Source: Prostheceraeus crozeri (taxonomy: Eukaryota; Platyhelminthes; Polycladida; Euryleptidae). From it: 64,000 nt of DNA. Below the pieces are notes generated by a model, which was given only the letters and a program-made list of their open reading frames with translations, was not told the origin of the DNA and made no database searches. Positions within the stretch are counted from its first letter, which is position 1. Every line of letters starts with the position of its first letter. This document shows positions 11,936 through 60,852 of this stretch, one piece after another. The position numbers were made by a program, and so were the translations under genes. The stretch spans positions 1 through 64,000 of the forward strand of contig CAJQUW010005322.1 in the NCBI GenBank assembly GCA_907163375.1. Reading direction: 5' to 3'.

Positions 11936-12078
11936 CAAAAATTTGATTGTAATAGCATCTTCCTCAATTTCAGGCATCTACTTCATCACCAAAGCCCTCC
12001 CTTCTCGAGGAAAGTTTAGAGCTGTTGAGTGAAGGTAGGTTGTTAACAGAGATGATAGAATGATTTCTCTTTCAGGTG

Positions 12079-12402: not shown

Positions 12403-15400
12403 ATGGAGTCCAATACTCAAATAGTAGATTTTCCTGAGTGGCTCCTTCAACATTCTAACATTATCGAAGCGCTCTTCAACAATTTAGACAATTTTAGAAT
12501 GAAGGCACTCATCTACCTCAAACTAAAATATATTAAAATAGATTTTCAAACGGGTCAAGTGACGGAGAGAATACAGTTTCATGTTCCTTCCTCTTCCGCA
12601 ACCGAAGCTGTAGACTGCGAGTCTTGGCTAAATTTCAATATTCAATGTTTAAAATCAAATGTAGATAAGTTCAATCAGCGCGACAGCGCTCTCATTTTTG
12701 ATGGCGTGGACTCAGCCATGTTCAAAATTTCCCTATTAGAAAGTCATGCAACTCGAGGCACATTTAAACTACCAAAAACGTTGTATAATAAGAAAGCTGT
12801 CATCAATGTCAATTGTAAATCGCAGTGTTTCAAACATGCCGTCCTATCCATTCTCCACTATAATGATATCAACGCGCATCGAGATCGCACATATAGCTAT
12901 AGACAGTGGGAGGATGAACTAGACTTTGAAGATTGTGATAGTGACAACATGAAAATCAAAGATGTAGAAACGTTCGAGAAACATAATAAGATTAAAATTG
13001 TCGTTCACGTGTGGGAGAAGGGGTTGAAGGGTGCCCGCTATAACTCACGTTCAACTTGTTATGAACGTGTAGTCAACCTCTTATTAGTAAAACAAGATGA
13101 TAGCGAGGAATGGCACTACTGTGGTATTCCCAAAATCTCTCGCTTGTATACACACTTGGGACACTCTAAAAGTGGTGAACATTTTGTATGCGACCGGTGC
13201 ATCCGCTCGTTTTGGAGTAAAGATAAATTTGAAACTCATCATGAATGGTGCAAGCGAGGTAAATTACAAATGGAACGCATGCCCAAAGATAAAATATTTT
13301 CACATAGGGATAATGGTGACGAATTAAGTCCCCTGCGTGTCATTTACGCAGACATAGAATGCTACATTGATGATATCATCCACAAGCCAGCAGCCATATC
13401 CTGCTATGAAGTATGTCATGACCACTTTAGGAATAGGCAAAACAAAATGCATACTTGGCAAGGTGAAGATTGCATTTCAAAATTTCTAGAATTTCTCGAT
13501 AAAGCTGCCAAATTTCAGCAATCATATGATTCCCAATTGCAGCGTAAGTCACTACATATGTCAGATGAAGACAAACAAAAATTTGAAAATTGCACATCCT
13601 GTCCTAAATGTCATAAAACGTTTGATGACGATAAAATTAAGAAAGTGCGTGATCATGATCACATCACTGGTAAATTTAGAAACGCACTCTGCTCCAAATG
13701 TAACTTTTCACTTAGGTTGAGACGTCGTGTACTACCCGTCATTTTTCATAACTTTAAGGGCTATGACAGTCATATGCTCATAAAAGGAGGGTTGAGCCAG
13801 ATGAAATCGTGGCAGTTTAATGTAATAGCGCAAACGAGAGAAAAATTCATGGCAAAAGTACCAGGAGATAAAACTAAAGAAAATAAGACAGTTTTCTTCG
13901 AAATAAAATTTTTAGATTCATTCCAATTCATGTCAGCGTCACTAGCTTCTCTCGTTCGTAATCTGAAGTTTCTTCCCCATAGTCAAACTTTGAAGAAACA
14001 CTATCCAAACTTAACGGATGAGATAATCACTCGCAAAGGAGTCCTTCCCTATGCGTATTTTAGGTCAATGTCTAAACTAAATGAAACAACCCTTCCTTCC
14101 ATTGACAAATTACAAAACGATTTGACGGGTCAAGATTGTCCAGTAGAGGACTATGAACATGCTCAAGAGACATGGTTAAAATTTTATTGTAAAACGTTTG
14201 GCGATTATATGATCGCTTACTTAGAATTAGATGTCATTTTGCTGGCTGATGTCTTTCAGGAATTTCGACGAGTGGCATTAGAAGAAGATAAATTAGATCC
14301 TGTCCACTTTGTCAGTCTACCAGCCATGTCCTTTAAATCAGCCTTTAAAATGACTGGTGAGACCATTCATCTCTTATAAGACCCCGAGATGTATAACATA
14401 TTTGAGCGCGGAATACGCGGTGGTCTCACATTTGTAAATAAACATCATATAAAATCTGAAACAGTAGGTGATGATCATATCCACCTAAAGTACTATGACC
14501 AAAATAATTTATATGGCAGTTCACTGTCTAAACCACTACCTCATTCCGAGTTTAGTTGGTTAAAACAAGATGAGCTTGAGTATTACTCCAACCCTTCAAA
14601 CATACTGAAGATTCCAGATGAAGGTGATTGGGGATATTATTTTGAAGTGGATTTGATTTATCCAAATAGTATCAAAAATAAAACTGCTGATTTCCCACTC
14701 GCACCTGAATCTGGTGAAGTGACTAAAGATATGTTTTCACCATTCATGTCACAATTTCATGATAACTTAAGAGAGTGTGGACAGCCAAGGTACAAACCAT
14801 GCCGCAAACTTTTACTCACCCAATATGATAAGAAAAATTATCTCGTGCACTTCTACATACTAAAATTCTATTTAGAAATGGGCATGCTTCTAAAGTCAGT
14901 TCACCGCATCATCGAATTTAGACAGAAAGCCTTCCTCAAACCCTACATAGATGGTAACAGTCAAAAACGTGCACTAGCCCAAAATAATTTTGAAAAGGAT
15001 TTTTGTAAATGTAAGAATAACAGTCTTTTCGGAAAGACCATGGAAGATGTTAGCAAACGTATGAACTACAAACTAGTCATTGATGATCAAAAATATCACA
15101 AATTGACCTCATCACCTCTTTTCATTGATAGAGACATTATCGATGAGGATCTTGTAGGTGTTAAAATGATAAAGTCAGAAGTTGAGTTGTGCAAACCCAT
15201 CTATATTGGGCAAGCCGTTTTAGATTATTCCAAGCTTGAAATGTATCAACTCTTCTACAAAATATTAAAACCATGCCCTCTTGTAAAAGAGGTTCGCTTG
15301 CTGGGTGGTGATACAGACAGTTTCTTTTTAGGAATTACCACTCAAAAAGATTTAAATTTTAATGAAGTAGCTAAGTCATTAGAAAAATATTTCGACACAT

Positions 15401-15636
15401 CTAACTACAATCCCACTCATCCACTCTATTCCATACAGAATAAAGCCAAACTTGTTTGTTTTAAGGATGAAACAGCAGGAAAGGAAATAGATGAAATGAT
15501 TCTCCTCCGTCCTAAAATGTATTCCATGAAATTAAAAGAATGTGCAGATAGTATTAAGCGTGCTAAAGGTATATCAAAATCCATTGTTCACAAAATGAAA
15601 CATCGGTCCTATAAGAAGGCCTATAAAAATAAAACT
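12403..15636 (+). pseudogene. polB: Protein-primed DNA polymerase B of Polinton B, main part
   Basis: This is the replicative family-B polymerase with 3'-5' exonuclease. The order seen is: an HFVCDRCIRSF zinc finger (about residue 265); Exo I, IYADIECYI (about 313); an embedded His-Asn-His/endonuclease-VII-like zinc module with CPKC...DHDHITGKFRNALC (about 400-440); Exo II, FHNFKGYDSH (about 448); and Exo III, YLELDVILLADVF (about 606). The palm follows with motif A, YYDQNNLYGSS, motif B, NNSLFGKTMEDV, and motif C, GGDTDSFFLG (15304-15333). One in-frame TAA at 14377-14379 interrupts it between Exo III and GIRGG. The frame is open on both sides, so it is a single nonsense change. The gene is cut at the TA at 15636-15637 by a Tigger-type insertion. 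Its C-terminus lies at 27481-27689. Confidence 0.9.
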
Positions 15637-16113
15637 ACAGTAGTCCCTGTCTATAACGACCTGCTTTCTGCCAAGTAAAAAAGTCGTTATAGCCAGGTGG
15701 TCGTTGTATACAGGTACATATTTCAATATCACATTTTTAACTATATTTTGGTAATATGGATTAATAAGCATTCCTGCAGAAGCTACAGTAAAAAAAATTC
15801 GTATCAGATTGATGTAGATAGTGTAGACACGTTATTATTTGTATTAGCATTACTGTAAATGAATTTTTTACATCGTAGATACGCAATTAAATTTTTTGTA
15901 TACTCCAGTATACCTCTACTGCCCAATACCGATGCAATCGTACATGTTATGAGGATAAAAAAACTACTCTTCATTCCACGAAAAATATCCTTTTTGGGAA
16001 GACATGCATCTTAATGCACATTTTGATTAGTTTCTGCAGAAGACGTCGCTAATCTTAGTTTGTTTCGCTTGACTTACTTTGACGTTGAACATTTCACTGG
16101 CAAAACTCACTAA

Positions 16114-16455: not shown

Positions 16456-16526
16456 AAAAAGGTCGTTACATTTATTACAAAAGTGTTAAAGGTCGTTCGA
16501 ATGTCACTGCCGCAACGTAGATTAAC

Positions 16527-18111: not shown

Positions 18112-18124
18112 AGTAATCGGCTCC

Positions 18125-19042: not shown

Positions 19043-19105
19043 TCGGTACGCGATACGGTTTATCCGACGAAACCACGATCCTGGGCCGCGTACTTATGAT
19101 CCCAT

Positions 19106-19192
19106 CCCCAAATTTTATTTCCAAAACTAAATTACAGAACTCTTTGAACACAGAGGAAAAATTTGCCGTAACATGAGCAAATTTTTCTCATC
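19106..19192. repeat. 87 bp direct repeat, right copy
   Basis: Partner of 16369-16455 (86 of 87 bases equal). Immediately to its right the Tigger coding sequence continues; immediately to its left the RT element begins. Confidence 0.85.
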
Positions 19193-20162: not shown

Positions 20163-20261
20163 ACTTTGCTTTCTCCTCTTCGTATTGCCATTTTCTCCAT
20201 TGTTCCATCTCTGGAGGACTTCTGCTTTATTTGTAATTATTGATTGTATTTGTGTTTACCA

Positions 20262-21488: not shown

Positions 21489-21549
21489 TATTAGGAAATG
21501 TAGCTTTGTGTAGCCTACTTAGCTTTAGAGAGACACACCGAGTAACCGA

Positions 21550-23040: not shown

Positions 23041-23059
23041 CCTTATCATGTTTCTCCTG

Positions 23060-23163
23060 TGTGATACCTGAGAAAGCGACGACAGCGTGTTTATGTAGGT
23101 TTTATTCAGCTTGATGAAGAACACGTTATGAAACACAAATTCGAAAATGTTCATATCTCTATA
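23060..23163 (-). repeat. 3' LTR
   Basis: 104 bp, identical to 27062-27165. Confidence 0.8.
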
Positions 23164-23303
23164 TAAAATGTTCTATTTATCATCACGAGTCCACACAAGA
23201 GAATAGCTAGAAGAGTTATAGTTATCATCATGGATTAGAAGAATTCACACTAATTCATACAAAGATATTTATCATCACGAATTGGAAGAGTTCACACAAG
23301 CGG

Positions 23304-26300: not shown

Positions 26301-27008
26301 TCTCATGCCGCAAAAGTAACAGAAGTCTTTTGTCCTTTGATTTAGACGTGTAGTGGCTAGAGTTTCATTCGGGTTGGCGATGCTGGGTGCGCTTTCATGA
26401 AGGCCTACCAGTGATTGTGTCTGGTGACTGTTGGCTTCACTGCTTAGTTGCCTGGTTTGCGTGTCGGTGTTGAAATTACTTGCATAAGATTCAGCGTTGC
26501 TTTGCGCTTGCTCGAGGGATTTAGCTTGTAGAATAGCGTCGTCCAATGATAGCTTCTTATTTTCAAGAAGTCTAGTACGAATAGCAGGAGACCGAAGTCC
26601 TCTGATAAAAGAGTCTCTGATGAATAAACGGCGATTTTCTTCGGCGGTAACGTTCTGGAAATTACAGTCACTAGCCAAATTGTTGAGAGCAAGGATGAAC
26701 TCATCCAAATTTTCTTCTAATTTTTGTACCCTCGAAGAGAGTAAATGACGCGCATATACTTCGTTAGGCGTCTTCAGGTAAGCCGAGTTGAGCTTTCCCA
26801 TAGCATCCGCGTAGCTCGTGCAGTCCTGAATGATATCGACCACGTTGGTACCTATGTGCAGGAATAACACCTCCAGTTCGTCTGGTTTGTGAGCCGCGAT
26901 TGTTGAGAGGAAGTAGGTGAAGTTCCTACTCCAGAGTTTCCAATGCTTGCCGCTAGAGGGCGTGTTTGGAGGAATGTCAAACTTTTCGGGACGTGTTATT
27001 CTATCCAT
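23304..27008 (-). CDS. Gag-Pol polyprotein of the LTR retrotransposon
   Basis: A single intact frame of 1,234 residues. It has an N-terminal gag-like region; two CCHC knuckles (CYFCGMRRHPRQEC, then CNKCDKKGHWQKVC) near residue 235-270; a retropepsin with ALIDSGSIDSNYI; an RT with SVIDLSTAYYQ and the YAYLDDVTVCG box; and an RNase H with IETDASDE. The integrase has a zinc-binding HHDLAHPG...CEICARC and a DDE core: NIDFKGP, YVHSDRGAAF and NSQCERYNGI. The domain order PR-RT-RH-IN places it in Ty3/Metaviridae. There is no chromodomain. All catalytic residues are present, so it could be active. The Met at 27008 lies 54 bp downstream of the LTR end, leaving a very short leader. Confidence 0.95.
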   Translation of the reverse strand: MDRITRPEKFDIPPNTPSSGKHWKLWSRNFTYFLSTIAAHKPDELEVLFLHIGTNVVDIIQDCTSYADAMGKLNSAYLKTPNEVYARHLLSSRVQKLEENLDEFILALNNLASDCNFQNVTAEENRRLFIRDSFIRGLRSPAIRTRLLENKKLSLDDAILQAKSLEQAQSNAESYASNFNTDTQTRQLSSEANSHQTQSLVGLHESAPSIANPNETLATTRLNQRTKDFCYFCGMRRHPRQECPARDSTCNKCDKKGHWQKVCRSKQKSPQISAAIQSSPTTTLAASFVSAACRSPVTVNASIDGQSIKALIDSGSIDSNYICENLVDRLNLAVNPRSSCVSMASTNLTTNVKGFCSANVKLLGREYKNVELSILPELCNDIILGLPFFQRHEAVTFALGGTEPSLKIGDKPNLEFCALTRMKVETPKLFSNLTPDCHPIITKPRRFSASDEQFIEKEIQRLLKDNVIEPSRSPWRAQVVVTHNQNKKKRMVIDFSQTINRFTHVDAFPLPNIHDLVNKIGKNKFFSVIDLSTAYYQVEIEPCERPFTAFQAGGQPYQFTRIPMGVTNGAAAFQRVMNDIIKRWDLKETYAYLDDVTVCGANKEEHDLILERFWKASNAVGLAINREKCRYGLQEVSILGYSVSEGTLRPDPERLRPLQELPIPHEKKSLQRLIGLLAYYAKWIPGYSKKIRPLIESQNFPLSQECRDAINDMKELLSQITVEVIREDIPFTIETDASDETIAATLTQEGRPVAFFSRSLNDAERRHHIVEKEAYAIVESIRKWRHFLTNHFVLYTDQRSVAFMFNNRAAAKIKNEKIQRWRIESSPLSYTIKYRPGKENIPADALTRAHCASVGLSTSRKLEQLHHDLAHPGVVRMLHFVRSKNLPYSVDDVRHVTSDCEICARCKPQFYKPPNTKLVKATSAFERLNIDFKGPIPASQSGNQYILTIIDEFSRFPFAYPCRDVSATSVIKCLSLLFSIFGMPGYVHSDRGAAFMSSDVKNFLTNLGVATSRTTPYHPTGNSQCERYNGIIWRTITLVIEGKRMSKGLWEQALPEALHSIRSLLCTSTNSTPHEQLFSYSRRSTNGSTLPDWLTSPGTVLMKRHVRNSKSEPLVEQVELIEANQHYAYVKRPDGKIDSVSTRDLAPLPKSDTQVFPPIEAISNHPEHMPPDPVAIHPMTTTDEEKEDRSTSTADNSQDEAITVRRSMRQRKHLLIDYCCDYSREFFEPVMSDS

Positions 27009-27042
27009 TGTCGGATAAGTCTAAGAATGACTTAATCAGATA

Positions 27043-27060
27043 TTCATCAAGCTGAATAAA
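27043..27060 (-). promoter_or_regulatory. Primer-binding site complementary to the element's own LTR
   Basis: One base after the 5' LTR (minus strand) comes TTTATTCAGCTTGATGAA. The LTR itself holds the exact complement, TTCATCAAGCTGAATAAA (27120-27103). The 18 of 18 match fits self-priming, as described for the Tf1/sushi group, rather than a tRNA primer. Confidence 0.6.
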
Positions 27061-27061
27061 T

Positions 27062-27165
27062 TGTGATACCTGAGAAAGCGACGACAGCGTGTTTATGTAG
27101 GTTTTATTCAGCTTGATGAAGAACACGTTATGAAACACAAATTCGAAAATGTTCATATCTCTATA
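27062..27165 (-). repeat. 5' LTR
   Basis: 104 bp, identical to 23060-23163. The segment 27103-27120 is complementary to the primer-binding site. Confidence 0.8.
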
Positions 27166-27480
27166 ACAGCAGGTTAAAACAATTATAACATAACAAAACA
27201 TAACAACCTGGTCTACAATTTCTGCAATTTCTGCACATCGTTAATGTCAAAATATCTTATATTCTCATCTAAATAAATTATCGGCCGACGGTCGTTATAA
27301 ACAGGTAAAATATAGAATTTGCCAAATTATTGAGGTCGTTACTCGCGTTAGACAGGAAGTCGTTATACACAAGTTTAATCATACATGATAGATAGGAATT
27401 CTATTTCGGTGCAAATTTTCGTAGTCGTTATAGACAGGAAGTCGTTAAATACAAGGTCGTTATAGGCAGGGACTACTGTA

Positions 27481-27689
27481 TAACGTTTGTCAATATGACA
27501 ATCTTAAAATCTCAAGTTCATACTGTGAAAACGCACACGTTCAAGAAACGAGCGCTTTCAGCATGGGAGGATAAGAGGTGTTGGATAGGACATAACACAT
27601 CTCTTCCACATGGACATCATGACACAAACATACCTCCACCCAAAAGAATAAAACTCACGCTACCACATTCAGGAGACGTCTTAGCATAA
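27481..27689 (+). pseudogene. polB: C-terminus of Polinton B PolB, displaced by insertion
   Basis: The short frame contains KKRALSAWEDKRCW, which matches the conserved K-x-A-L-S-x-x-D-D/E-K-R block at the extreme C-terminus of protein-primed PolBs. The second PolB of this window has SILEDKRCW at the same place. It continues 12403-15636 in the same reading frame once the 15638-27478 insertion and one copy of TA are removed. It ends in a short basic tail (PPPKRIKLTLP). Confidence 0.85.
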
Positions 27690-27867
27690 TCAACTTTAAC
27701 TCAGTATTTTGATGTTGCTTTTTGTAGATATACATGGTTGTTTTATGTGTTGCATTAGATTGTATTTCCTTGTAAATAGTTCCCTACAGTCAGCCCATTC
27801 CCCCTATAGCTGTGAAAAGACTTTTTCATACACATATTTTTATTTCAATAAACATATCATAATGACT

Positions 27868-29387
27868 TCACTTTGTTTTCCGAAACACTAAAGTTATGAG
27901 GGATTTAGTATCTTTGACATGGATGCACTCATGTAGACCATTTGTAATTTTGATAGAAATAGAGGGTATTGTTTGTTTGATAACAGGATGGTAGAAAATA
28001 GGTTGAAACATCTTCTCGACTATTCCATATAAAGCATCCTTATCATGAATGAAATCACGTAAAATGTGTTCTTTTTCCACGCCAACAGAAATAGGTAGAA
28101 TCAAATCACTTTGAATGTAAAGGTGCTGTTCATGTTTATCAAGTGTCATTGGTGTTTCTATACCAATCGTATGCGCAGCAGTAAACATATTTTGTAGCAT
28201 TGAAAAACCAAAGAGTTTTTTCAAATTTTTACTCAATTGACATTGAATGTCATCACCCAGTTTCAGAACAACGCGTTGATTTTCAATTGAAAACGAAATG
28301 TGGTGTGTCTTTACATCATATTTACTTTTCATCACATGCCTCAACTTCTGTTGTATATAAGGATTTACTACATGAATGAAGCTTTCAACTGTATGATATA
28401 GACGCGGCATTATATTGATAGCAACTTTAGATTCTTCATAAGACTGGTAAATTTTCTTGATGCGATCACCATAGATGTCCACCCACCATTCATCATTAAC
28501 TGAATCAGCTTTAGTGTGATATTCATGAGAAGCATAAACCAAACCGCTTCCATTAATAGGTGTATAATGTCTTACAAAATGACGCAAGGTTGGAGAGAAA
28601 TAAACTGTAAGTTTGTCATTATATTTCTGAATAACCAACTTATCTTTGTCCGCCATAATTTTCTCTCCATACTTCTTACCCACAGTCTCATTCCATCGTT
28701 TTACTAACTCAATAAGTGATAAAGGTTGAACACCACGCTTTTTCAAAATGATGCGTTCTTCACATTCTACAACATCTTCATCAAATATTTTAAATTTATA
28801 ATGAAATTTGTTGATTCGATTTGAATAAACTTTTTTAACATTTGCAGTAGCAATTGACGTTAGATGTAGTCCATGGCCAAAACCGAGATGTGGATAGAAT
28901 TCATTATCCAACCTCAGTGTAAGACCTTTAGTAAAAGAATGAATCGAAGGAACTGTCTCCCACTCCAATGATAGATAGTAAACTCATAAACTTTCTGATC
29001 CTTATTCTTCATGATGGAAGTATTACCACTGTTGAATGCCTTAATAATTTTCTCATTCCCAAATGGCTCATAAGAATCTGATTTTATCTGAATCCATTCA
29101 TAGTTCCACTTTCCATCTGACGTTAAATTGTATGGGAACTGGAATGCATTATTCATCGTTATTCCATCATGGGTGCGAGGAGTCAATATCATTTCTTCCA
29201 AATCATTCACATTCTGAATATTGCTATCATAGCAAATGCTGGAAACACCTACTTCCCATTCACCTTCTAGATGTAGTGAGCGATTTAATTCTACTCGAAA
29301 GTCTGATGGTTTATTATTAGGAAATTTATTCATAGAAGCATTACTGGGTAAGTAAATTAGAAACGAATCTCTATTTACACTTTCCAT
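27868..29387 (-). pseudogene. Polinton virion-type protein 1 (paralogue of the next gene)
   Basis: From ATG 29387 the protein starts MESVNRDSFLIYLPSNASMN and carries NKPSDFRVELNRSLHLEGEW then EVGVSSICYDS. That block is found in a family of uncharacterised animal proteins which, from general knowledge, occur beside Polinton capsid genes. A one-base frameshift near 28950 (after FTIYHWS) breaks the frame. The rest is open to 27868, giving about 505 residues in all. No signal peptide or membrane segment. The position at the end of the late block and the paralogue next door suggest a structural role such as vertex or fibre protein; that is inference. Confidence 0.6.
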
Positions 29388-29426: not shown

Positions 29427-30824
29427 TTAACTCTTCATTCGGAAATGGAGTGTGATACTTGTTACAGCATCTTTATGAAAAGGAATCAACGCACCAGCAT
29501 CGTCATAAATTGCAATATCAATTTGTGGGATGTAGTTTGATTTCAGCTTTGTATAATGCACTTTCTGGAAAGTATGCTCAGATAAAATACTGCAGCTTTT
29601 TGGCTGGTATGGTATCATTGCTAGCAATGGAGCTTCAACATCTCCCAAACGTACATCTTCACCAATATTGGAATATATCTGAAAATAGTTAATACGACGC
29701 GATAGCGACATGTCTGCGCTAGCTTTGGTTGCAGTACCACTTTTAAAGATATTTTGATCAAAACCCAAAATGTCCATTAGAGTTTTATTCATAATTAGTT
29801 CAATACCTTTTCCACTTATAAAGAGAGACAAAGCACCTTCTTTTTCAGAAAATGAAATATGTTGCTCATTAATCACTTCATTTAAATAATCTACAACCAA
29901 TTTAACTGAAGTAATAATGCGAGGCATCAACACTCTTGTTTCATGTAAGATACCACCTAAAGGATCTATATGCTTTCTGTATAAAGATACGGACCATTCT
30001 GTATCAAATTGATTTGACCTTTCACATGGCAAATGTTGCATATCAAATTTTCCATGAACAGCTGCAGAACGAGGTCGTAAGAACTGATGAAAATCTTTTG
30101 AACAAACTAATACTAGATCATCATCATTTAATTTACTTATTGCAATATGATTAGATGATTTGATATAAGTCCATGTTGCCACTTGTTTACCATCAACACG
30201 AAGGAGATAATTAAATTTCTTCAATAATGTTTCAGGAGTCATGTTTGTCTTTCTTGGCTTAATCACAATCTTCTTCACCAACGTCTTCTCATTTCTTGGA
30301 ATAAGATCTACATAATAAGCTTCCTCTCGATATATTAACTGTTTATGACCACTTATGTGGTAATTAACGTTAAAATTATCATAGCTTGTTAAGGCGCTAG
30401 CGAGGTAACCTAAATCATTTCTTAAACTTGGACTTAAACCAACAATCCAATCTTTCTCAACTACATGATGTACATAATTATGATCATCATTGTGCGGAGT
30501 AAATTGGACAATATGTTTACACGCTTTATTCAGGAAATCATATATAAACTTTTTACATGATAAGAGATCTTTCTTTGGCCACTGTGGAATGTATACTCGG
30601 CAGCCCTTTTCACATTGGTAAGCAGCTGTGCGTCTCATATTAATAGTCATCACCTCATGATCAAAAGTATAGACACAGTTGCTATAAACAAGTTGAGTGA
30701 CACCCACTTCCCAATTCCCATTTAGCTGTTGTGTATGATCAATGGGAGTAGAAAAGAGTGCGGCTCGATTACTAGCAAATCTATTTCCGGCCGCATTGCT
30801 AAGCGAAATATGATAAAACGACAT
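29427..30824 (-). CDS. Polinton virion-type protein 2
   Basis: ATG 30824 is preferred because it begins MSFYHISLSNAAGNRF. The same frame is open further upstream but overlaps the divergent small genes. About 465 residues, intact. The N-terminal block (TPIDHTQQLNGNWEVGVTQL) aligns with the paralogous L-E-G-E-W-E-V-G-V block of the neighbour. A Cys pair (CEKGCRVYIP) follows, then mixed beta-rich sequence to the end. It is among the few unbroken late genes. Function unknown; probably a virion component. Confidence 0.65.
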   Translation of the reverse strand: MSFYHISLSNAAGNRFASNRAALFSTPIDHTQQLNGNWEVGVTQLVYSNCVYTFDHEVMTINMRRTAAYQCEKGCRVYIPQWPKKDLLSCKKFIYDFLNKACKHIVQFTPHNDDHNYVHHVVEKDWIVGLSPSLRNDLGYLASALTSYDNFNVNYHISGHKQLIYREEAYYVDLIPRNEKTLVKKIVIKPRKTNMTPETLLKKFNYLLRVDGKQVATWTYIKSSNHIAISKLNDDDLVLVCSKDFHQFLRPRSAAVHGKFDMQHLPCERSNQFDTEWSVSLYRKHIDPLGGILHETRVLMPRIITSVKLVVDYLNEVINEQHISFSEKEGALSLFISGKGIELIMNKTLMDILGFDQNIFKSGTATKASADMSLSRRINYFQIYSNIGEDVRLGDVEAPLLAMIPYQPKSCSILSEHTFQKVHYTKLKSNYIPQIDIAIYDDAGALIPFHKDAVTSITLHFRMKS

Positions 30825-30858
30825 TTTTATATTGGTGATCTGCAGCTTGCATAACATC

Positions 30859-31215
30859 ATGAAGACTTGGATTTTGGACTCTCTACAATATATCAGAGTT
30901 GATCGTAATGGAAACGTGCATTTCAAAAATTCTCATGGTCATACTGCAAGAGGTATTACATTAACATGGCGACAATTTGTTAACCTCAATGATATCATGA
31001 GGGATTTGGAATATTTTGAAACATTAAGATTCATCTCTTTAGGTGATCAAGTTTGGCTTCAACGTCGCAACAATGAAATTCTAATCTGTCATTCTCATTC
31101 CGCAAACTGTTTCTCATTTCGCAAATACAATTGGGAGAAGTATAGAAGATACGTACATCGCTCCATCATGACATTTATTCGTCGTGAGTTCATCGCCCTA
31201 CTATGCAAATCTTAA
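30859..31215 (+). CDS. Small basic protein, possible PC4-like nucleic-acid binder, copy 1
   Basis: ATG 30859 gives 118 residues. There are two similar halves: a strand pattern ending in GITLTWRQFVNLNDIMRDLE, and later an ISICHSH-like strand followed by FSFRKYNWEKYRRYVHRSIM. The order 'beta strands, G-I-S/T-L, then W/F-x-x-L helix' is reminiscent of the PC4/Sub1 single-strand DNA-binding fold. The similarity is weak and is offered as a hypothesis. It lies just upstream of a paralogue and a TBP-like gene on the same strand, opposite to the late genes. Confidence 0.5.
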   Translation: MKTWILDSLQYIRVDRNGNVHFKNSHGHTARGITLTWRQFVNLNDIMRDLEYFETLRFISLGDQVWLQRRNNEILICHSHSANCFSFRKYNWEKYRRYVHRSIMTFIRREFIALLCKS

Positions 31216-31237
31216 TCAGACATGACTACCACGCACC

Positions 31238-31600
31238 ATGAGTTCGAAATTAGATTCCCTACAACGTATTGAAACGGATCATGATCGAAACGTCTATTTC
31301 AAAGATTCAACTGGAAATGTGAGAAGAGAGTTTGCTTTATCTTATCGTCATTTTCAATCTCTACATCATATCATGAAGGATTTGAAATACTTCTATATGA
31401 AAAGACATTCACGTATTGGAAATCGCATCTGGTTGCGCGTCAACAATCGGCGAATTCAACTCTATCATTCCCAACTTCATACTAACTTCACATTTCATCA
31501 AGGTAGTTGGAAAAGTATAAAAGGAAGGTACATCGCTCAATTTACTCATTCTTTCATCATGAAGCGCCATCGCTACACCATCGTCAACATTCTCCGTCGC
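31238..31600 (+). pseudogene. Copy 2 of the small PC4-like protein, one-base deletion
   Basis: ATG 31238 (MSSKLDSLQRIETDHDRN) aligns along its length with the preceding gene: LDSLQ; the N-V-x-F-K block; H-I-M-K-D-L. At about 31510 the frame changes. The next frame resumes EKYKRKVHRSIYSFFHHE, matching EKYRRYVHRSIMTF of copy 1. Copy 1 has TGGGAGAAG where this has TGGAAAAG, so one base has been lost. The natural end of the protein cannot be placed because the TBP-like frame overlaps from 31559. Confidence 0.5.
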
Positions 31601-32103
31601 TTCAGACTCTACACCAAAATCGATCTCACAACATTACATCAACACCTTCCAAACAGCAAGTATTACCCGGGCCGACCTCAAATGTTAGTGGTGAAGATGA
31701 ACAATTCACGGAATCTTCAACTCTTCCCAAATGGAACTGTACAGATTCTCGGCGCCCTTTCTCATTTATCGGCGCAGTCAATGCGCTTAGAGCTACAAAG
31801 ACTACTACGTCGGATATGGAAGAGGGAGAGGTGTGTGATGTCGAATCTGACTGTGGACAATATGGTGATCTCTACTCAATTGAGTGAAAGTGTATCATTT
31901 TTGAAGATTCATACCAGCAGTTACAATTTGTGTTATGAACCCGAACTTTTCCTGCAGCTCTCATTAGTTGTTGGTTACCTGTGCATGTTGCAATCTTTCA
32001 TAATAGTAAAGTGATCATTACTGGACTAAAATCTCATTTGCAAGCAAATGTGATCCTAGACTATCTCATCGAGTATGTACGTACCCAGCGGATTGTAAAA
32101 TAA
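31559..32103 (+). pseudogene. TATA-binding-protein (TBP) homologue encoded by Polinton B
   Basis: Two TBP repeats are visible. Repeat 1: IDLTTLHQHLPNSKYYPGRP, then LVVKMNNSRNLQLFPNGTVQ and ILGA. This parallels the L-D-L / N-A-x-Y / F-x-S-G / T-G-A pattern of TBP. Repeat 2: LTVDNMVISTQL, LCYEPELFLQL and, after a one-base shift near 31975, VHVAIFHNSKVIITGLKS, which parallels N-I-V-x-S / Y-E-P-E-L-F / I-F-x-S-G-K / T-G-A-K. Of the four DNA-intercalating Phe positions, three appear kept; the first of repeat 1 is Pro (G-R-P). About 180 residues is the size of the TBP core alone. ATG 31559 is inside the preceding frame. It may direct transcription of the late genes; inferred from homology. Confidence 0.75.
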
Positions 32104-32128: not shown

Positions 32129-32578
32129 TTATTTCAAATCATGATAGAACTTACAAATCATTTTTTCATTAGAGGATGGATTACATGAGAAGTTTTGAAT
32201 AACAGATACAAATCGAGATACATGTAAACGTTTTAAGATGAAGTACAGTACAAAAGCACCACACGTTGATGAAAGTGGATATTGTAGTATGCGTTCATTT
32301 CGCTGATATTGACGCGTATGTTTTCTCAACCACTGCTGTGTTGGTATATTTGGAGGTTGAGCAAGAGAGTCAAATAGTTCACCACGTCGGTCTTCTCCAA
32401 TAAAGATCGCTTTCCAATGCTCACCGCCTAAATTCTGCGAATGAGTGTTTAGCACAATAAAGATGGGATAGTGATTTACTGCAGGTGGTAAGGTATCGAG
32501 TGAATAGACATTATCGAAAGCTTTCAACGTCGCTTCGTCTGCATTACGCTGTACTTTAGTCTTAATATCGTCACGCAG
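32129..32578 (-). CDS. Adenain-like cysteine protease
   Basis: Adenovirus-protease/Ulp1-type fold. AFDNVYSLDTLP at the N-terminus is followed by the catalytic His in LGGEHWKAIFI, the acidic residue in ELFDSLAQPP, Gln in ILQYPL and the nucleophile in SSTCGAFVLYFIL. All four active-site positions are present. It would mature the virion proteins. The frame is open from about 32578 but has no ATG before LKAFDN (only TTG at 32527), so the start was lost or lies across a splice. It is closely packed behind the capsid gene, as is usual in Polintons. Confidence 0.85.
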   Translation of the reverse strand: MRDDIKTKVQRNADEATLKAFDNVYSLDTLPPAVNHYPIFIVLNTHSQNLGGEHWKAIFIGEDRRGELFDSLAQPPNIPTQQWLRKHTRQYQRNERILQYPLSSTCGAFVLYFILKRLHVSRFVSVIQNFSCNPSSNEKMICKFYHDLK

Positions 32579-32590: not shown

Positions 32591-33868
32591 TTAACGATTA
32601 TACTGAAGAATCACGTCACGATACTTTGTAATTTCAATATTTGAATCGAAGACTGCATAAATTAATACATTGATCGTCTCAGGTAGTGTTCTTTTGAACG
32701 TCAAATCCAAACGAATATTATGAGGCACGTTCGCTTGACGATAGGGTGCACTAATATCGCTATCAGCAGTCAAATCAAATGCATAAATAGTATATCCACT
32801 CTTAAACTCTTTCATAGTGAGTCCGTTGGTGTCATCCGTATTGTAAAAGCCAAAGACATCCATAAAATCAACATAACTGCGCATAAATTGATCCGCAGCA
32901 AAATCTGGTTTGTAGGGTGGACCAGGATGACTCACACCATTTACACGTAAAGCAATTTCACTTAACTGATTGTGCTTAAAAATGAAAGGATTCTTCTTTA
33001 TATTACCATTAAATGCATCATTTTCAACCATTGCCACCATGAGGAGCTTCGGTGCTTCCGATGGAAAGAGGCCATCTTTCATGAAACTCTTTTGATCTTT
33101 TGGAATTGTAAAGGTGAGAAGCTTTGTATGCTGAACGGGTTAAATGGCATTTTGGCGGTTAAGACCTTCAGCATGTCCTCTAATGACACTTGGATTCGGT
33201 ACTACTCGACGAATGTAAAGTGCAATATCTTCCACATGAATTCTAAAATTGTCAACTTTAGCAAATGCATTCAGCGCAAATTCAGGCTTATTCAATGTCA
33301 GCTTGAGTCGCATGCTGGTATTACACAGTAAAAACTTTGACTGTCTAAAGAAGTCTAAATTCAGCGGACCATATAGCTGACATACTCTACTATCTTTAAT
33401 CATAGCAGATCGCTTTATAAAGCCACAGTTTGTTTCAGCATCAAATTTTCCTGCTTCATCTCTGTACCATCCCATGGCTTCCATATGACTTTTTTGTGCT
33501 GCTGGATGAAACTGTGATACATGGTTGAAATATGATTTATAGGGAAAATCGCTTTGACCACCTTCCACCTGCTGCTCTCCAATCGTTAGAGAAACATCGC
33601 GAAGTAATGTAGTCAATGGTAAATTGTTCAGTCCAACTTTATGTGTATCGTCAATAGCAGTTCCATCTGCTTGCTGAATTCTAAACCTCAAATCAACCAT
33701 CGCATAACTCAAATCTATGTAGTCATCACTACCACCAGGAATAACAAATTCAATGGGGCCAGCATTCTCAGCTGTTCGAGGATGATAATCTACAATACTT
33801 GAACTAAGAATATCTGTCTGTATGGCTTGTTGATCAAACAAACAAAACCCGGAAGTTTTACACTCCAT
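32591..33868 (-). pseudogene. Major capsid protein (hexon-type, double jelly roll)
   Basis: ATG 33868. About 425 codons, related to the widespread animal 'F54H12.2-like' proteins, which are Polinton/adintovirus hexons. Recognisable blocks are AGPIEFVIPGGSDDYIDL, TLLRDVSLTIGEQQVEGG, DSRVCQLYGPLNLDFF near the middle, and FNGNIKKNPFIFKHNQLSEI and YTIYAFDLTAD in the second half. A single in-frame TAA at 33140-33142 (after RQNAI) interrupts an otherwise continuous frame: 33082-32591 is in the same phase and the bases between are open. The homologous position is usually aromatic, so one substitution would explain it. Only 2 bp separate it from the core-protein gene upstream. Confidence 0.85.
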
Positions 33869-34367: not shown

Positions 34368-35588
34368 TCACTGTCGATCACTTAGATGAAAGATGTCGGC
34401 ACGACGCATCCAAGAGTTCATACTTGAAGGATAACCAGCCCATTTAACAAGACACCATTCTTCACCTTGCCGTTTTTTACATCGAATGATTTTCTCTACC
34501 AAATATGTTTCACTTTCAGTGACTACCTCAATCTCATCGCGGTAAAAACTACCCTCAATTTCTTCATTATTGTAATCTTTCACCTTGTAGGTGGTGGGAG
34601 AGTCTTTTTGATCAATCCTTGATACTGTAAATACCTCCTCTGTCCAATTCGGAAGGTACCCTTTAGCAAAAACACTTTTCACTTTTGAGATACGAACTTT
34701 GTCACCAATTTTCACATCACTTTTCACATGAGTGCGTTTACGTTGGAATTATTCGCGCACTTTATCTACATTGTCAGCATTTACATCTACTGGTCTGAGT
34801 CCAATAGAACGATGGATAGAGTGATTGTAGGCATGGAGTGTATCTTGTAGAACCTTTGTCCAATTTTGTGTCAAGTTGGCAGTAAAATGTCGCCACAAGC
34901 GATTTTTTAATGTGCGATTAAAACGTTCAACGAGTGCAGCTTTATAAGCGCTCTTTACACTAAACAACTCAATGTCATGCCTCTCAAATAATCTTCTCAC
35001 ATGCTGATTTTCAAACTCTTTTCCTTGATCACTCTGAATTCTTTTTGGAATGCGGCCTTCTCGAAAAATTGTTTGGAATGCTTTTGCTACTCCTTTCCCT
35101 TCTTTAGTTTTTAAAGGTTGAGCCCACGCATAACGCGAGAAAATATCAATGACGGTTAAAATAAAATTATTGCCCGAGTTATGTTTCGAAATGCAGGCGA
35201 CATCGCACAAATCTGCTTGCCACTGTTCATCAATGTCATGAACAATATAATGGCGGGTGCGGTACTTCTTTTTCGCTTGTTTGTGGAGTGTATAGGTAGC
35301 CTGACCCTTTAACCATCGTTTCACTTGTGATTGTGGAAGACCACTCGCTTTTGATAATTTCTTGATAGATGCAAATCCTGTCGGATGTTTTACATCATAA
35401 TAGATTGACTTCAAACGCTCAGTCGATGACGACTGACTCTTTTTCCTCCTTCTCATCTTTTTGCTTTCTTGCCTTTCTACATTTACAACAACTGCAGCAT
35501 TTAGCTTTAGCGGTTTTGCGATCATGTTCACATTGCTTAGGGGTCTCATTGTGAGAGCTGGCGCAGCAAGTGCAAGTGACAACGACAC
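34368..35588 (-). pseudogene. int: Retroviral-type integrase with chromodomain
   Basis: The helical N-terminal region (GLPQSQVKRWLKGQATYTLH) is followed by the rve core. Catalytic residues are seen in DEQWQADLCDV (Asp), RIQSDQGKEFEN (Asp) and AALVERFNRTLKN (Glu). The C-terminal part (34727-34368) has an SH3-like KIGDKVRISKV and a chromodomain with LVKWAGYPSSMNSW. The two parts share one frame and are separated by a single in-frame TAA at 34749-34751. The segment before about 35450 in this frame does not look like integrase (it overlaps the Cys-rich frame 35419-35634), so the true start is probably near 35450 or the N-terminus is shared. The enzyme would insert the element and give the 6 bp target duplication. 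Confidence 0.9.
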
Positions 35589-35635: not shown

Positions 35636-36328
35636 TTAATAGTCTGAGAACATGTATTTCTTTGGAGGAGCTGTTTTACGTTTTCCTTTTAGTAGTTTTA
35701 GTGGTGGCGTAGATCTACGTCGAGTTCTTCCTCTTGTTTGCTTAGTGAGTGTGGGAGGGGATGTAGCAGGTGACGCCTTAAACCAATTTGTTGGCATTTT
35801 CATCGTCTGAAGCATTGGAGCAGTAGCCACTGTTGAATCAAGTTCTTTCAATGTCTCATTATTCAAAGCAAATTTTGGCACATTATGCTTTTTCATTAGT
35901 TTAAGAAAGTATGACCAACCAGGTGGAACATAGCCCTGACGGCGCTTTCTACGTGTCGCATACTGAATCAAGTCTTCATAACGTGAAGCATCAATCACTT
36001 TATTTTCATCTGTAATGATTTCTCCTCTATCATTTACATTGAGGTGGGGTTCAATACTGTTGAAAAGAGATATGGCATGTGCACGAGATGCTAAAGGTGT
36101 AGCAGTCGACACAGAGTCACGCATCTTATTCTTCAAATTTTTCAATTGTTCAACAGTTTCCGATTGTAATAATACAGCACGATGTGGATCTTTGATGTGA
36201 ACATTTTGCTGATAATCTAATTCTTTCCTATACATTTGATTTGCAAGAGGTTGCTTTACTTGCTGCATGGCAGTCAATTGTACATATTCATCCTGAGGAA
36301 TAACAATCATGCGAGAATAAGAACTCAT
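35636..36328 (-). CDS. Conserved Polinton protein, unknown function
   Basis: 230 residues starting MSSYSRMIVIPQDEYVQLTA. It has helical, Gln/Lys-rich sequence in the first half and a small domain around YATRRKRRQGYVPPGWSYFL in the middle. The tail is Thr/Lys/Arg-rich (TRGRTRRRSTPPLKLLKGKR), suggesting nucleic-acid binding or a nuclear signal. Its ATG overlaps the ATPase stop by four bases, so the two are probably co-expressed. A minor virion protein is possible; not shown by sequence. Confidence 0.6.
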   Translation of the reverse strand: MSSYSRMIVIPQDEYVQLTAMQQVKQPLANQMYRKELDYQQNVHIKDPHRAVLLQSETVEQLKNLKNKMRDSVSTATPLASRAHAISLFNSIEPHLNVNDRGEIITDENKVIDASRYEDLIQYATRRKRRQGYVPPGWSYFLKLMKKHNVPKFALNNETLKELDSTVATAPMLQTMKMPTNWFKASPATSPPTLTKQTRGRTRRRSTPPLKLLKGKRKTAPPKKYMFSDY

Positions 36329-36990
36329 AGTTTGTAGATAATCATGGGAGTTTTCAAAATATCACTTCGAAATCTAAATTCTTCCGGACACTCTTGCGTA
36401 AAGTCAATGAATAAGCAACCGTGTGGTTTTTCAGTAGCTTCTTGAAAAATTTCAATTAAGGCTTTTGATCCTCTTGGTGCAACTTGTCGCGCTAAAATTT
36501 CAAATTGACTTTTATCTCGCGGATTCTTGAAAATAGCATAATAGTGTGTATTCAGGTTTCGTGTACGAGCTTCTTTTCCATCAGGAAACAAATTTTGTGT
36601 GATATAGATGATAAAGCACCTTTTATGATGTGCTGCGCGAGTGAACATATCTGTAACATCTTTGGAATTCTTACTTTCTTTTAATAAATCATCCAATACA
36701 ACAACATCATTAGACTGAAGTTTATCCACTGGAATAATTCCTTCATGTCGAATAAAGTTGCGACTTTGCAATTCCTGAAACAGCGACGGTTGATAAATAC
36801 CATAACACCAAATCACTCGATTGATAGGTTCCTTAAACAACTCCCTTCTTTTATCCAATAAATTCAGCGTGAAAACAGTTTTACCTGCATGAGATGGACC
36901 TGATACAGTCAGAACTTTATCGCATTGAAGTCTGACATCCATTTTAATACTTTGAGATTCAACATTTGCATAATTAACGCTTAGAGCCAA
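36325..36990 (-). CDS. A32/FtsK-type genome-packaging ATPase
   Basis: 221 residues. Walker A is GPSHAGKT (residues 31-38), Walker B VVVLDDLL (about 96-103), and a sensor-like FIIYITQNLF follows. It matches the Polinton/virophage/NCLDV DNA-packaging ATPase family, which pumps DNA into the capsid. Intact and of normal length. It overlaps its upstream neighbour's end by 17 bp and its downstream neighbour by 4 bp. Confidence 0.9.
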   Translation of the reverse strand: MALSVNYANVESQSIKMDVRLQCDKVLTVSGPSHAGKTVFTLNLLDKRRELFKEPINRVIWCYGIYQPSLFQELQSRNFIRHEGIIPVDKLQSNDVVVLDDLLKESKNSKDVTDMFTRAAHHKRCFIIYITQNLFPDGKEARTRNLNTHYYAIFKNPRDKSQFEILARQVAPRGSKALIEIFQEATEKPHGCLFIDFTQECPEEFRFRSDILKTPMIIYKL

Positions 36991-39175: not shown

Positions 39176-39312
39176 GACTTGTTTTATTTACGCTGTAGCG
39201 GTGTAGGATTATGTACCTTGGTTGTTTCTTCCACTGGCCTCAGTTGTAGATGATCTGATCGTAGCGAACCTTATAACGTTTGACCGCCATTTTGTCCTAC
39301 TAGTGCAGCAGA

Positions 39313-39331
39313 TGGAGTAGATGCCTGAAAA
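39313..39331 (-). promoter_or_regulatory. Candidate splice acceptor/leader shared with the PolB side
   Basis: On the minus strand TTTTCAGGCATCTACTCCATC follows a pyrimidine-rich run. The plus-strand sequence near 11977-11997 reads ATTTCAGGCATCTACTTCATC. The two share 19 positions with one or two differences, each placed upstream of the first gene of its transcription unit. Confidence 0.35.
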
Positions 39332-39479
39332 TGAAAAAGATTGTATTAAGTTTACGTTCAAGGGAGGAGAGGGAGGGAAGTAGCGACTTACCATTTTAGT
39401 TGGATAATAGAATAGAGAGAGAGAGAAAATGTGCGTCCGTCACTCGTGTGATTCAACGATGGAATGATTCTCACTGTGG

Positions 39480-56730: not shown

Positions 56731-59700
56731 ATGCAGTACACGTGTGAATTCTGCCGCCAGTCTCGGTTTCGAGACTGTATTGCCCATGGAGCAGCGGAGA
56801 CGGGTCGCAAATATTGTTGGACGTGCTGTAAATGGTATGGAGACGAACACGATTGCCGTGCGTTTAATTATGGCGACGACAATGACTTGCTGTGTCTGGA
56901 TTGCGACGGAAGTTTCGACGTGGAGACGTACCATAAGCACGCGTGTGTGGGACGGTGTCGCTACTGTGATGCATATGGTGAATGCTGAAGCGGAAGGATG
57001 GGATGAGCATTTGTGCCCCTACCTGTTTGAGTTCATGCAAGAGGGCGGCGCAGCTGTGGAAGAAGAACGTATCATGGACGGTCGCGGGTATAATTATCGA
57101 TTTACCCCTCCTCAAGCCACAAATGAATGGAAGACGTATTTGAATTCAATTTATGCGGACTTGTATCGTGTCATTGTGCAACAACAGCCCCACGAGGACG
57201 TGAAAGTGTTTGTGAGTATGAGACTCAAGTTTGCCAAGATTGATATGTCGACGGGCGAAGAGGAAGTGAGATTCACCTCCACACCCTCATATATTCATGA
57301 AGGCGTCCAAGCACGTAACTTTGATGCATGGTTCCGTGACATTGTGTCAGAGATTGAAGGATTTATTGAAGACTATCACGAAGACGGATCAGGAGTTGTG
57401 GTGAAGGAAGTGATGGAGTTACTGGTTCAAACAAGTTCCTTCCCTAATTTTCGCATGGGCGCACCGATTCCTATCCCCCGAGATATCAAGCTCTGCAGAG
57501 GCATATGTGTGTTTGAGCGCAACAATTATACATCGCATTGTTTTCAAGACAGTGTTCTCTATGCGCTTGCCTACCAAGACAATCGCATTCCTCGACGTGT
57601 TGAACGTGTTGATTCCCGCACCAAGACATCATATGTCATTTATCAGAATCGACTTCTTGCAGTGTGCAAGTTGAATTTGAACCAGTACTATCATCTAGAC
57701 TTTTCCATGATGACGTCAGAGGGGTTGATGAATACACGGGATATTCAGGATTTCGAGGAGAAGAACAATGTAATTGTTCGTATCCACGTACATGACGGTA
57801 AAGGATTTGTGGGCCAATTATACCCGGTCTGTCAAGCTGTGAAGGAGAACACGCGCATCGTTCATGTGGTGATGGTGACGCGGTACGATATGGAGGATCA
57901 GTCTGGACATTTTCTTCCCGTGACGGAATTTCAGAAATGTGCTCGCATGTGGTATCGGAACATGAACCAAACGCAAGTGAATCGTTTTGAAACATGTGAG
58001 TTGTGTAGTTTACGATTCAATTTCTACGAGAAGGCCGTAAAATATGGAAAGACAAAGGACATGGCGCACAAAGAACGTCTGAAGCATCAAGCGAAATGCA
58101 ATGGCGGATTTTTCCAGATGGAAACGACCCCGGAAGATACGAAGCCGCACGAATTTATCGACCACGCGAAAACCACTCAACCCCTCGCTGTGATGTACGC
58201 GGACATTGAGAGCATGATTGATGCCGTGTCCAAGAAGCATACGGCAGCGTATGTGGGATCCTATGTGGTGTGGCATCCGGCGCTGGACATGAAAGAATCT
58301 GTGGTGATCCATAAGGGGGACGAGTGTATTCCTGCCTTTATTGCACACATCAGACAGGTGAGCTTGTCTATTTTTCGTCACATGCAAGCGACGTACAGTA
58401 ACATGACGACGACGGATGCCGATATGCGGGACTATGAACGGACAGCACAATGTAACATGTGCGGATGTGATGTGAAACCTCCGAAGCAAGGTGAAAAGAA
58501 TGGACCTACGACAAAGGTGCGAGACCGCGACCATATCACGGGAAAGTATCTGCAAACCCTGTGCAATGCGTGTAACCTGCGACGACGTCAATCCCGGACC
58601 ACATTAAACATCTTGCTTTACAATTGGAAGGGGTATGACAGTCACCAGGTGATTGTACAAGGCTTTACCAAGCTGGATCATAAGTGTACGATCGAGCCCA
58701 TTTATGTGTCAGGAGGATCAGGGATTCGTGGAGGGATGACATTTGTGAATCAGCACCGAGCTCAAGCAGAAGAAGGTACTCACCTGTTTTATGTGGATGC
58801 TAACAATTTGTACGGAGCGGCCATGATGGGACCTTTGCCGAAGGACTGTTTTGCCTGGGTACGACCGGAGGACTTGGTGGACATCAACGACTGGGTGAGA
58901 CGATACAATGTCAATGGCACCACGGGTCATGTACTGTGCGTCGATTTGGAGTATCCCCCACACATCCAAGATGCCACGGAAGATTTACCATTGGCTCCTT
59001 ACCGCGGGACGGCGAAATGGGAGGACATGTCTCCCTATATGCAAGACCTATGGCAGGAGTTGAACGGGAACCGACCCTTTCACTCAGCCGACAAATTAAT
59101 GATGACGCACGAGAATCGCGAACAGTACGTGGTACATATTGCTGCTCTCAAGTATTATGTGGAGAAGGGCTTACATATCACCAAGGTTCATTACGGGATC
59201 TCCTTCAATCAAGAACCGTATATTCGCCCCTATGTACAATACCATACGCGAGAACGCGCCAAGGCAACAACGAAAATGCGCCGCAATCTCCACAAGTTGA
59301 TGGTGAACGCACTGTATGACAAGACGATGGAGAATGTGCGGAAATATGGAAAGCACTATTTTGTACGTTCACCGAATGTGTTTAGCAAATGGACACGTCA
59401 TCCCTTATTGTCAATCCTTCTTCAACATCAGCGACAAAGCCGTGGTGGTGAATGTGCGCAAGACCAAGGTGGACTTGAACAAGCCCATTTATATCGGACA
59501 ATGCATCCTGGACAACAGCAAGATTATCATGCACAAGCTGTTTGACCAGTGGAAGGCCAACAAGACGTGCACCTCAGTGGAGCTCATTGGTGGGGACACA
59601 GACTCCTTCTTCCTCAAAGTCCGCAGCCGGTATACACGCGAAGAAGTGCTGCGTTCGTTTGAAAACCTCCCGAATTTTATTGATACGGAGGCGAAAGGTG

Positions 59701-60130
59701 TTCTCGATACCTCAAATTATCCCATGGGTCATCCAGAGAGACGTACCGAGAATGCGAATCGTTTGGGATGTTTCAAGGATGAGTGTGTGGGGGATATGGT
59801 GAAGGAGTTTGTGTGTTTGAGTGCCAAGATGTACTCTTACATTGTCCTCAAAGGTAATGAGGAAGAAATCCACGACTGTCGCATGAAGGGAGTGTGTCAA
59901 GCGAAGAAGCGTCAAGTGAAACATCAGAATTATGTGGACGTATTCGAAAAACATTCGATTACCACAGTGTCACAAACCCTCCTCCGATCCCAACACCACG
60001 AGATGAGAACGGTGACGCAAGTGAAGAAGGCCTTAAGTATCTTGGAGGACAAGCGGTGTTGGTATTTACCCAATCAGAGTCTTCCATACGGCAACCATCG
60101 CCTATATGAAGAAGGGTATCTACACCCCGC
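56731..60130 (+). pseudogene. polB: Protein-primed DNA polymerase B of the second Polinton-type unit
   Basis: The start at 56731 encodes a Cys-rich module (MQYTCEFCRQSRF, YCWTCC, LLCLDCDGSF, CRYCDAYGEC). It stops at 56986, after which the main frame (open from 56744) takes over: a frameshift or overlap. The main frame has Exo I, MYADIESMI (58192); an endonuclease-VII-like zinc module, DRDHITGKYLQTLCNAC (58527-58580); Exo II, NWKGYDSHQ (58624); motif A, YVDANNLYGAAM (58790); and motif B, VNALYDKTMENV (59302). A one-base shift near 59405 leads to motif C, GGDTDSFFL (59587), and the C-terminal SILEDKRCW (60036-60062). Between Exo II and GIRGG only ~30 residues remain, against ~215 in the other PolB, so the Exo III region is missing in frame. 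Confidence 0.9.
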
Positions 60131-60741
60131 TGTCAAAGATGTCAAGGATCTGCAACCGCATGGTGGAGCTCAGAGCATCCTCCGCAATATCACTGCAGAC
60201 ATTGTTACCGCAACTCCCTCTGGTCACATACCGAGCATCACGCCCTTGTCGAGTCTATTGGAGATGGAACTATTCGGTCGCTGTACAGATTTTTCCACGG
60301 GGGTGTATCCAAATTTTGGGCAACCACTCTCTGGAAACGTACGATCGTATTTGTGAAGAGATGCGCCAACTACTCGCCCCCTACGGATTGGACGTGAGCG
60401 ACCCAGTCACGAAATCCTGCACAGTTCAATGTCAATGGAACTAAACAAAGGACAGCATGCAAACCATTCAACAGCTGCCATCGACATCGGTGATTTCCAA
60501 CGAGCGCGAGCTGTTTCCCGGAACGTTAATACGCAAAGGTAATTTGCACTGTTCCTTCTTTTCCAACGGAAGTGTAATTGTGACGGGTGTCTTATCGATT
60601 GCAGAAGCGGAATCGTTGGTGGAAGACATTCTCAAATCCCTATTCGATGGAGTTTTCCTCAATGAATCGGACAGCGAATCTGCTCGAGCTGGATTATCCT
60701 CGATCGGAGATTCTACGCCATTGTCCGACCAAACTGATTGA
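60106..60741 (+). pseudogene. Second Polinton TBP homologue
   Basis: ATG 60106 overlaps the last codons of PolB. Repeat 1 has SLQTLLPQLPLVTYRASRP, AVQIFPRGCIQILGNHSLE and EMRQLLAPYG. Repeat 2 has NERELFPGTLIRKGNLHCSF then FSNGSVIVTGVLSIAEAES and VEDILKSLF. These follow TBP's N-A-x-Y / I-F-x-S-G / T-G-A and Y-E-P-E-L-F-P-G / I-F-x-S-G / T-G-A landmarks. The two repeats share one frame, separated by a single TAA at 60442-60444. As in the other copy, the first intercalating Phe of repeat 1 is replaced by Pro (S-R-P), while the other three appear kept. The short acidic tail (NESDSESARAGL) is not part of TBP. Confidence 0.7.
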
Positions 60742-60852
60742 ACTCTGTGAACGCATCCTGGTTTGCTGAATTGCGACTATTGTGACTATTGCAACCATTG
60801 GTTTTCCTTTTTACGTCGACAAACTATGCTATAAATATGAGATAGTTGTTTG

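Follow-up and report, generated by a model that had tools for sequence, protein, structure and literature searches.

The segment at 31559..32103 (+ strand) of the window, by which we mean the whole stretch of 64,000 nucleotides that was analysed, almost certainly encodes a TATA-binding protein (TBP) of a family carried by Polintons. We read it as a decayed copy of a Polinton-encoded TBP which belongs to a large family of viral-type TBPs, and assign a probability of roughly 0.6 to the proposal that working copies act in transcription, with host TFIIB and RNA polymerase II, at the promoters of the element.

The TBP gene and its reading frames

The earlier note had proposed a comparison with the Pfam TBP model PF00352, and this model matches 31559-32011 (+) with E=5.6e-14 and 52.2 bits, where the cut-off is 22.9, so that the match is not due to chance. 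The profile of the TBP family described below scored 164.2 bits on 31226-32011 (profile positions 3-130) and 66.4 bits (E=1.7e-19, profile positions 129-179) on 31939-32100, a segment on which PF00352 alone stayed under its cut-off (E=0.022). Frame 2 carries lobe 1 and the first part of lobe 2, through YEPELF (31559..31951, +). The remaining part of lobe 2 is read in frame 1 at 31939-32100 (FPAAL..IFHNSKVIITGLKS.., including TGLKS) and with its stop codon occupies 31939..32103 (+). The switch of frame occurs inside lobe 2 at about 31.95 kb, and frame 2 stays open to 32014, out of register. Because lobe 2 is split over two frames, this copy is broken, and 31559..32103 does not hold a single open gene. 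The ORF that contains lobe 1 extends from 31238 to 32014, and its beginning belongs to another gene, here called X.

The description in the earlier note of one small gene with both repeats, inside the late block of a Polinton, thus needs amendment: both lobes are there, but they are spread over two frames of a broken copy. The gene does lie within the block, but its orientation (+) is the opposite of that of the integrase, protease and capsid-type ORFs beside it (-). The TBP motifs quoted in that note are present in the sequence, except that the first reads I-D-L and not L-D-L.

The surrounding element

The TBP gene is located in a decayed Polinton (element 1), as can be concluded from an integrase, a chromodomain and pieces of pPolB, with weaker matches for a protease and a capsid protein. 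The retroviral-type integrase (34749..35588, -) matches PF00665 (rve) with E=1.2e-11, and the chromodomain ORF (34368..34727, -) matches PF00385 with E=1.4e-7. A piece of an adenain/Ulp1-like protease (32129..32527, -) has a match to PF02902 below the cut-off (E=0.0015, 18.8 versus 20.7 bits), and its best PDB match is the S273R protease (E=0.024). Two ORFs at 32591..33868 (-) are taken by us to encode the putative major capsid protein; the match to PF21738 (double jelly roll-like), on 32594-33082, is below the cut-off (E=0.018), and the ORF at 33143-33868 has no PDB match and a stray PHROG match to a transcription regulator (E=0.004). A putative packaging ATPase (36325..36990, -) is indicated by a weak PHROG 'ATPase' match (E=0.006) and by what we presume, by eye, to be its P-loop.

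Two ORF pieces at 12403..15678 (+) were assigned to pPolB by alignment to a second pPolB in the window (25-37% identity; E=7e-31, 9e-41 and 1e-26); they include an Endonuclease_7 match (E=2e-6), and have no match of their own to PF03175, NCBIfam or PDB. A remnant of the pPolB C-terminus (27396..27686, +; 46% identical to 59307-60353 over 70 aa, E=1e-12) lies beyond a set of transposons nested in the pPolB gene. With the pPolB pieces on one side of these transposons and the remnant on the other, the 12-39 kb region is most simply explained as one interrupted Polinton, with a size of about 16 kb (12.1-39.3 kb minus the nested transposons). The nested transposons occupy 16366-27165 and include a gypsy-type element (23060-27165) with identical 104-bp flanking repeats and, at 17-21 kb, a Tc5-type transposase together with another reverse transcriptase. 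An inward-facing 38-bp pair (11950-11987 / 39311-39348), the score of which was reached by 0 of 500 shuffles, may represent the remains of the ends of element 1, although a different pair obtained a better score when the search was widened. Another candidate pair of terminal inverted repeats, 12113-12247 (+) and 27671-27805 (-), 72% similar, was rejected since by eye it is paralogous zinc-finger coding sequence. The ORFs 29427-30926 and 28914-29387 (-) resemble each other at their N-termini (37% over 57 aa, E=6e-6) and have no Pfam match. No Rfam match was found anywhere in the window.

A second TBP next to a second pPolB

The family profile was used to scan 1463 stop-to-stop pieces of the window. 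Four pieces scored E<=1e-3, the next best having E=0.43, and the two that do not belong to the element 1 TBP are at 60037-60441 (E=2.6e-9) and 60445-60738 (E=4e-10). They contain lobe 1 (60106..60441, +; profile positions 4-82) and lobe 2 (60445..60738, +; profile positions 119-173) of a second TBP, for which PF00352 gave E=0.0014 (below cut-off) and E=5.4e-6 (above cut-off), respectively. The lobes are in the same frame, and the in-frame stop between them means that this copy is broken as well. Its characteristic residues are Pro, Phe, Phe and Phe, with both TFIIB-contact acids, as in the rest of the family, and the six best relatives of each lobe, among the matches listed, are 32-51% identical over 51-95 residues. 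This TBP overlaps and then follows the 3' end of the second pPolB (element 2), which consists of two overlapping ORFs in different frames (56744..60356, +; PF03175 E=3.3e-9 on 58001-59542). The proposal of the earlier note that a Polinton carries a TBP homologue is therefore supported by the profile matches, by the element genes around the first copy, and by a second, divergent TBP behind a second pPolB.

Within element 2 no integrase or capsid gene was identified. The pPolB ORF at 59316-60356 (+) extends across lobe 1 of this TBP, and the two frames stand in the same relative phase as those of X and the TBP of element 1; this ORF has no match to the X profile. Just 3' of the second TBP there is a RING-finger ORF (60850-61386, +; PF13920 E=5.8e-9). 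Elsewhere in this part of the window, a 334-nt inverted repeat, 99% complementary with a spacing of 680 nt, is found at 54007-54340 / 55021-55354. The sole clear host-type gene seen encodes histone H2B (48944-49309, -; PF00125 E=6.3e-22). It has strong matches to H2B chains in PDB, the close ones being those of animals, and thus points to an animal as the host.

Unbroken relatives

A search with the window ORF as query matched seven proteins, in three of which (P0001, P0002 and P0004) both lobes are read through in an unbroken frame. These are 82%, 69% and 62% identical, respectively, to the 258-residue query over about half its length, and in each of them PF00352 matches two stretches (67.8-80.7 bits). 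Residues 25-193 of P0002 are co-linear with a full-length TBP model (E=3.8e-19), at 68.8 bits where the cut-off of this model is 181. A profile search of proteins identified 258 family members, of which the best 120 were listed, and a 40-row family profile matched 35 distinct solved TBP sequences in PDB (E from 3e-26 to 7.7e-15). Over 165 residues, P0002 and the core of human TBP are only 21% identical, which makes a recent capture from an animal host unlikely. Scans of IMG/VR in which TBP, X, capsid, pPolB and ATPase served in turn as queries gave no locus of a relative, and none was obtained from one GTDB scan and from phage records; the genetic context of homologues beyond the window is known solely through the X/TBP overlap signature in the proteins themselves.

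DNA-intercalating and TFIIB-contact residues

Four columns of our alignments are presumed to correspond to the intercalating Phe residues of TBP; in the alignments the family Pro pairs with the cellular first Phe. Among the best 120 of the 258 homologues, the second, third and fourth of these positions are F in 120/120 each. At the first position 116 proteins have P, three have L, Q or T (one protein each) and one has a gap; a separate 57-row count agrees with this pattern. Instead of the four intercalating Phe of TBP, three of four are thus kept in all of these 120. In the same set, the two lobe-2 positions that correspond to TFIIB contacts are E in 116 and D in 4, and E in 119 and D in 1, while a lobe-2 Asn and the Pro following the third Phe occur in 120/120. 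The intercalating Phe of TBP in general are treated in the available part of PMC12529657. According to the available text of PMC7221094, the two acids in lobe 2 contact TFIIB, other viral TBPs keep the first of them in only about 40% of cases, and nearly all TBP-bearing viruses also have a TFIIB-like protein. In the element ORFs that were scanned, Pfam detected neither a TFIIB nor an RNA polymerase domain above the cut-off; the sole polymerase-type match was Zn_ribbon_RPAB4 (27871-28968) with E=0.58, far under the cut-off. From the retained acids together with the lack of such domains in the scanned ORFs we infer the use of host TFIIB and RNA polymerase II.

Loss of the first intercalating Phe may weaken DNA binding. 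If so, the protein could be a decoy or inhibitor which sits on host promoters or ties up TFIIB and thereby lowers host transcription, with no part in transcription start on the element; weakened or altered DNA binding with TFIIB acids in place would suit such a function. We consider it unlikely, as three of the Phe, together with the Asn of lobe 2 and the Pro that follows the third Phe, are invariant in the best 120 of 258 homologues and would be of no use to a TFIIB decoy; the combination of kept Phe and kept TFIIB acids speaks more for active recruitment than for a simple decoy. The TBP fold might also serve as a DNA-bending factor in replication or packaging of the element instead of in transcription, as the position of the second TBP immediately 3' of pPolB could suggest; the TBP of element 1, however, does not adjoin pPolB, and the kept TFIIB acids would have no evident use outside transcription, which renders this function distinctly improbable. 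The residue pattern of the element TBP probably reflects a function in transcription, in which host TFIIB and RNA polymerase II are used at the element promoters.

Overlap of TBP lobe 1 with gene X

Gene X starts upstream of TBP and ends within it. Its N-terminal part (31238..31509, +, frame 2) was identified with X profile positions 2-111 (E=6.7e-38 on 31226-32011), and its C-terminal part (31507..31887, +, frame 1), with profile positions 93-217 (E=1.4e-67), lies over TBP lobe 1; the X frame of the window copy is broken near 31.5 kb. A tandem paralogue, X1 (30832..31215, +), matches the X profile with E=8.3e-38 and the X piece with 37% identity over 105 aa (E=1.9e-18). In all, 15 proteins of the X family were found, 14 of which were aligned, leaving out P0007 (a short and partly different ORF). 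The protein search was limited to lengths of 0.55-1.75 of the query, so that short forms of X could not be found and long X proteins were favoured.

The last 108 columns of the X alignment share their DNA with TBP lobe 1, the two frames being offset by one base. In each of the 14 X proteins, for 98-108 of the 108 pairs of adjacent residues the TBP frame can hold a residue that occurs in the close TBP clade, compared with a mean of 36-39 and a maximum of 54 in permuted controls, and 23-34 in the third frame; P0003 is practically the window's own sequence, and hence its 108 is no independent test. The overlap also leaves its mark in the TBP proteins. At least 18 residues upstream of the TBP start are present in 20 of the best 120 of 258 homologues, and in 16 of these 20 the sequence is consistent with the end of X (shuffle fraction <=0.01), the exceptions being P0025, P0044, P0108 and P0123. 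Looser anchoring of the start (36 rows) misplaced some starts and gave mixed overlap results.

One may ask whether X actually ends before TBP, with the overlapping frame being open merely as a by-product of the codon choice in TBP, especially as the length limits of the search would have missed short forms of X. This is very improbable. Under a model of selection on TBP only, with free wobble, about 5-8 stops are expected in the X frame and the probability of finding none ranges, according to the base model used, from 7e-5 to 2.7e-3. TBP coding alone would allow an X identity of at most 0.32-0.36, whereas the identity observed in the overlap has a mean of 0.59 (91 pairs) and is 0.57 between the two clades, and all 14 aligned X proteins stop at one and the same column. 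X is therefore conserved beyond what the coding of TBP explains, and we regard it as unusual that a conserved DNA-binding lobe overlaps over such a length with a second gene under constraint. A by-eye idea that X is a PC4-like coactivator was rejected, since the hhalign probability was 1% and no PC4 match was found in Pfam or PDB.

The overlap also bears on whether a host TBP gene or pseudogene simply landed in the element by chance and has no function there. TBP is a cellular gene and the window copy is broken, as such an event would have it. Set against this are the low identity of P0002 to human TBP, the family-wide Pro at the first Phe site, the conservation of the X overlap in 16 of the 20 testable homologues, and the second TBP of the same family behind the second pPolB, in view of which a chance landing is hardly credible.

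Promoter words

Words of the TATA or TATTWAA type show no enrichment in the 120 nt that precede 18 element starts. This lack of enrichment and the broken state of both TBP copies in the window are points against the transcriptional role proposed here. The commonest 7-mer within 150 nt upstream of 16 starts is ATGCAAA, found at 5 of 16 against 0.54 expected, and noticed post hoc among all 7-mers. In the element stretches, six of its seven occurrences are near a start and on the coding strand, i.e. at 12320 and 31203 (+) and at 29421, 34358, 36965 and 37379 (-), and four of these six are 35-46 nt upstream of the start. In the window as a whole, ATGCAAAT is present 11 times where 6.1 are expected, a count reached by 4 of 100 shuffles, and WATGCAAA is not enriched (13 against 12.0 expected). 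The octamer-like ATGCAAA(T) is a candidate target of the element TBP, from one decayed element only.

Proposed role of the element TBP

We propose that in working copies of the element TBP bends the DNA at element promoters by means of its three retained Phe residues, and that the proline at the first Phe site would cause a somewhat different DNA site to be recognised. The element TBP would recruit host TFIIB and RNA polymerase II, and in this way transcription would be steered to the element's own genes. X would be made from the same transcript region as TBP and may be its partner. More tentatively, and with some doubt on our side, these features could define a lineage of small virus-like transposons with their own promoter recognition, in which an altered TBP reads a non-canonical site, works with host TFIIB and RNA polymerase II, and has its lobe 1 dual-coded with a partner X. 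An element of about 16 kb that has its own TBP and yet keeps the TFIIB contact would constitute a small, host-polymerase-dependent system for the timing of viral genes. As the family has unbroken members, its binding and promoter activity are directly accessible to assays.

Comparison with known TBP systems

The earlier note knew of no TBP in Polintons or adintoviruses, and none was found by us among the papers listed in our literature searches, judged mostly by titles and abstract openings. TATA/TBP terms were looked up within the available texts of PMC12220804, PMC13037468, PMC10675990, PMC10132985, PMC7786948, PMC11464507 and PMC4722103; in PMC10675990, TBP is named solely in connection with elements of putative mirusvirus origin. 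By term search, TATA or TBP is absent from the available text of PMC11071308, PMC11071296, PMC10120064, PMC8097293 and PMC4028283, and in that of PMC11640650 the term occurs only in a primer. As far as the available texts go, the viral TBPs found in the literature are those of large viruses, some with their own polymerase and TFIIB, or are herpesvirus mimics.

With the cellular TBPs of eukaryotes and archaea (PF00352) the element family shares two lobes, a co-linear match, three of the four Phe and the TFIIB acids of lobe 2. It differs from them in its identity to human TBP of about 21%, in Pro at the first Phe site, in being carried by a virus-like element, and in the overlap of lobe 1 with another gene. 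Mirusviruses are likewise eukaryotic DNA viruses with a TBP, which is found in 59% of their genomes (PMC10132985, available text), but their genomes are far larger and they belong to another virion lineage, a distinction made here by description and not by sequence. Giant viruses also have a TBP (megavirus, PMC11464507; survey, PMC7221094), but according to the available parts of these papers they bring their own RNA polymerase and TFIIB-like proteins, and the TFIIB acids are often lost. In the element TBP, on the other hand, these acids are kept, and no polymerase or TFIIB partner is present among the scanned ORFs. ASFV and poxviruses have their own polymerase. Their B263R and VITF-3, respectively, are reported as TBP-like viral factors (PMC5825884 and PMC12917281), and are likened to the element TBP by description only.

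A system that works in a manner like that proposed here is the TBP mimic ORF24 of KSHV, a viral TBP that acts with host RNA polymerase II on viral promoters and, according to the available text of PMC12529657, needs all four Phe and is without the TFIIB-contact acids; the likeness drawn here is one of function. The element TBP differs from ORF24 on both counts, as its first Phe is replaced by Pro and its TFIIB-contact acids are kept.
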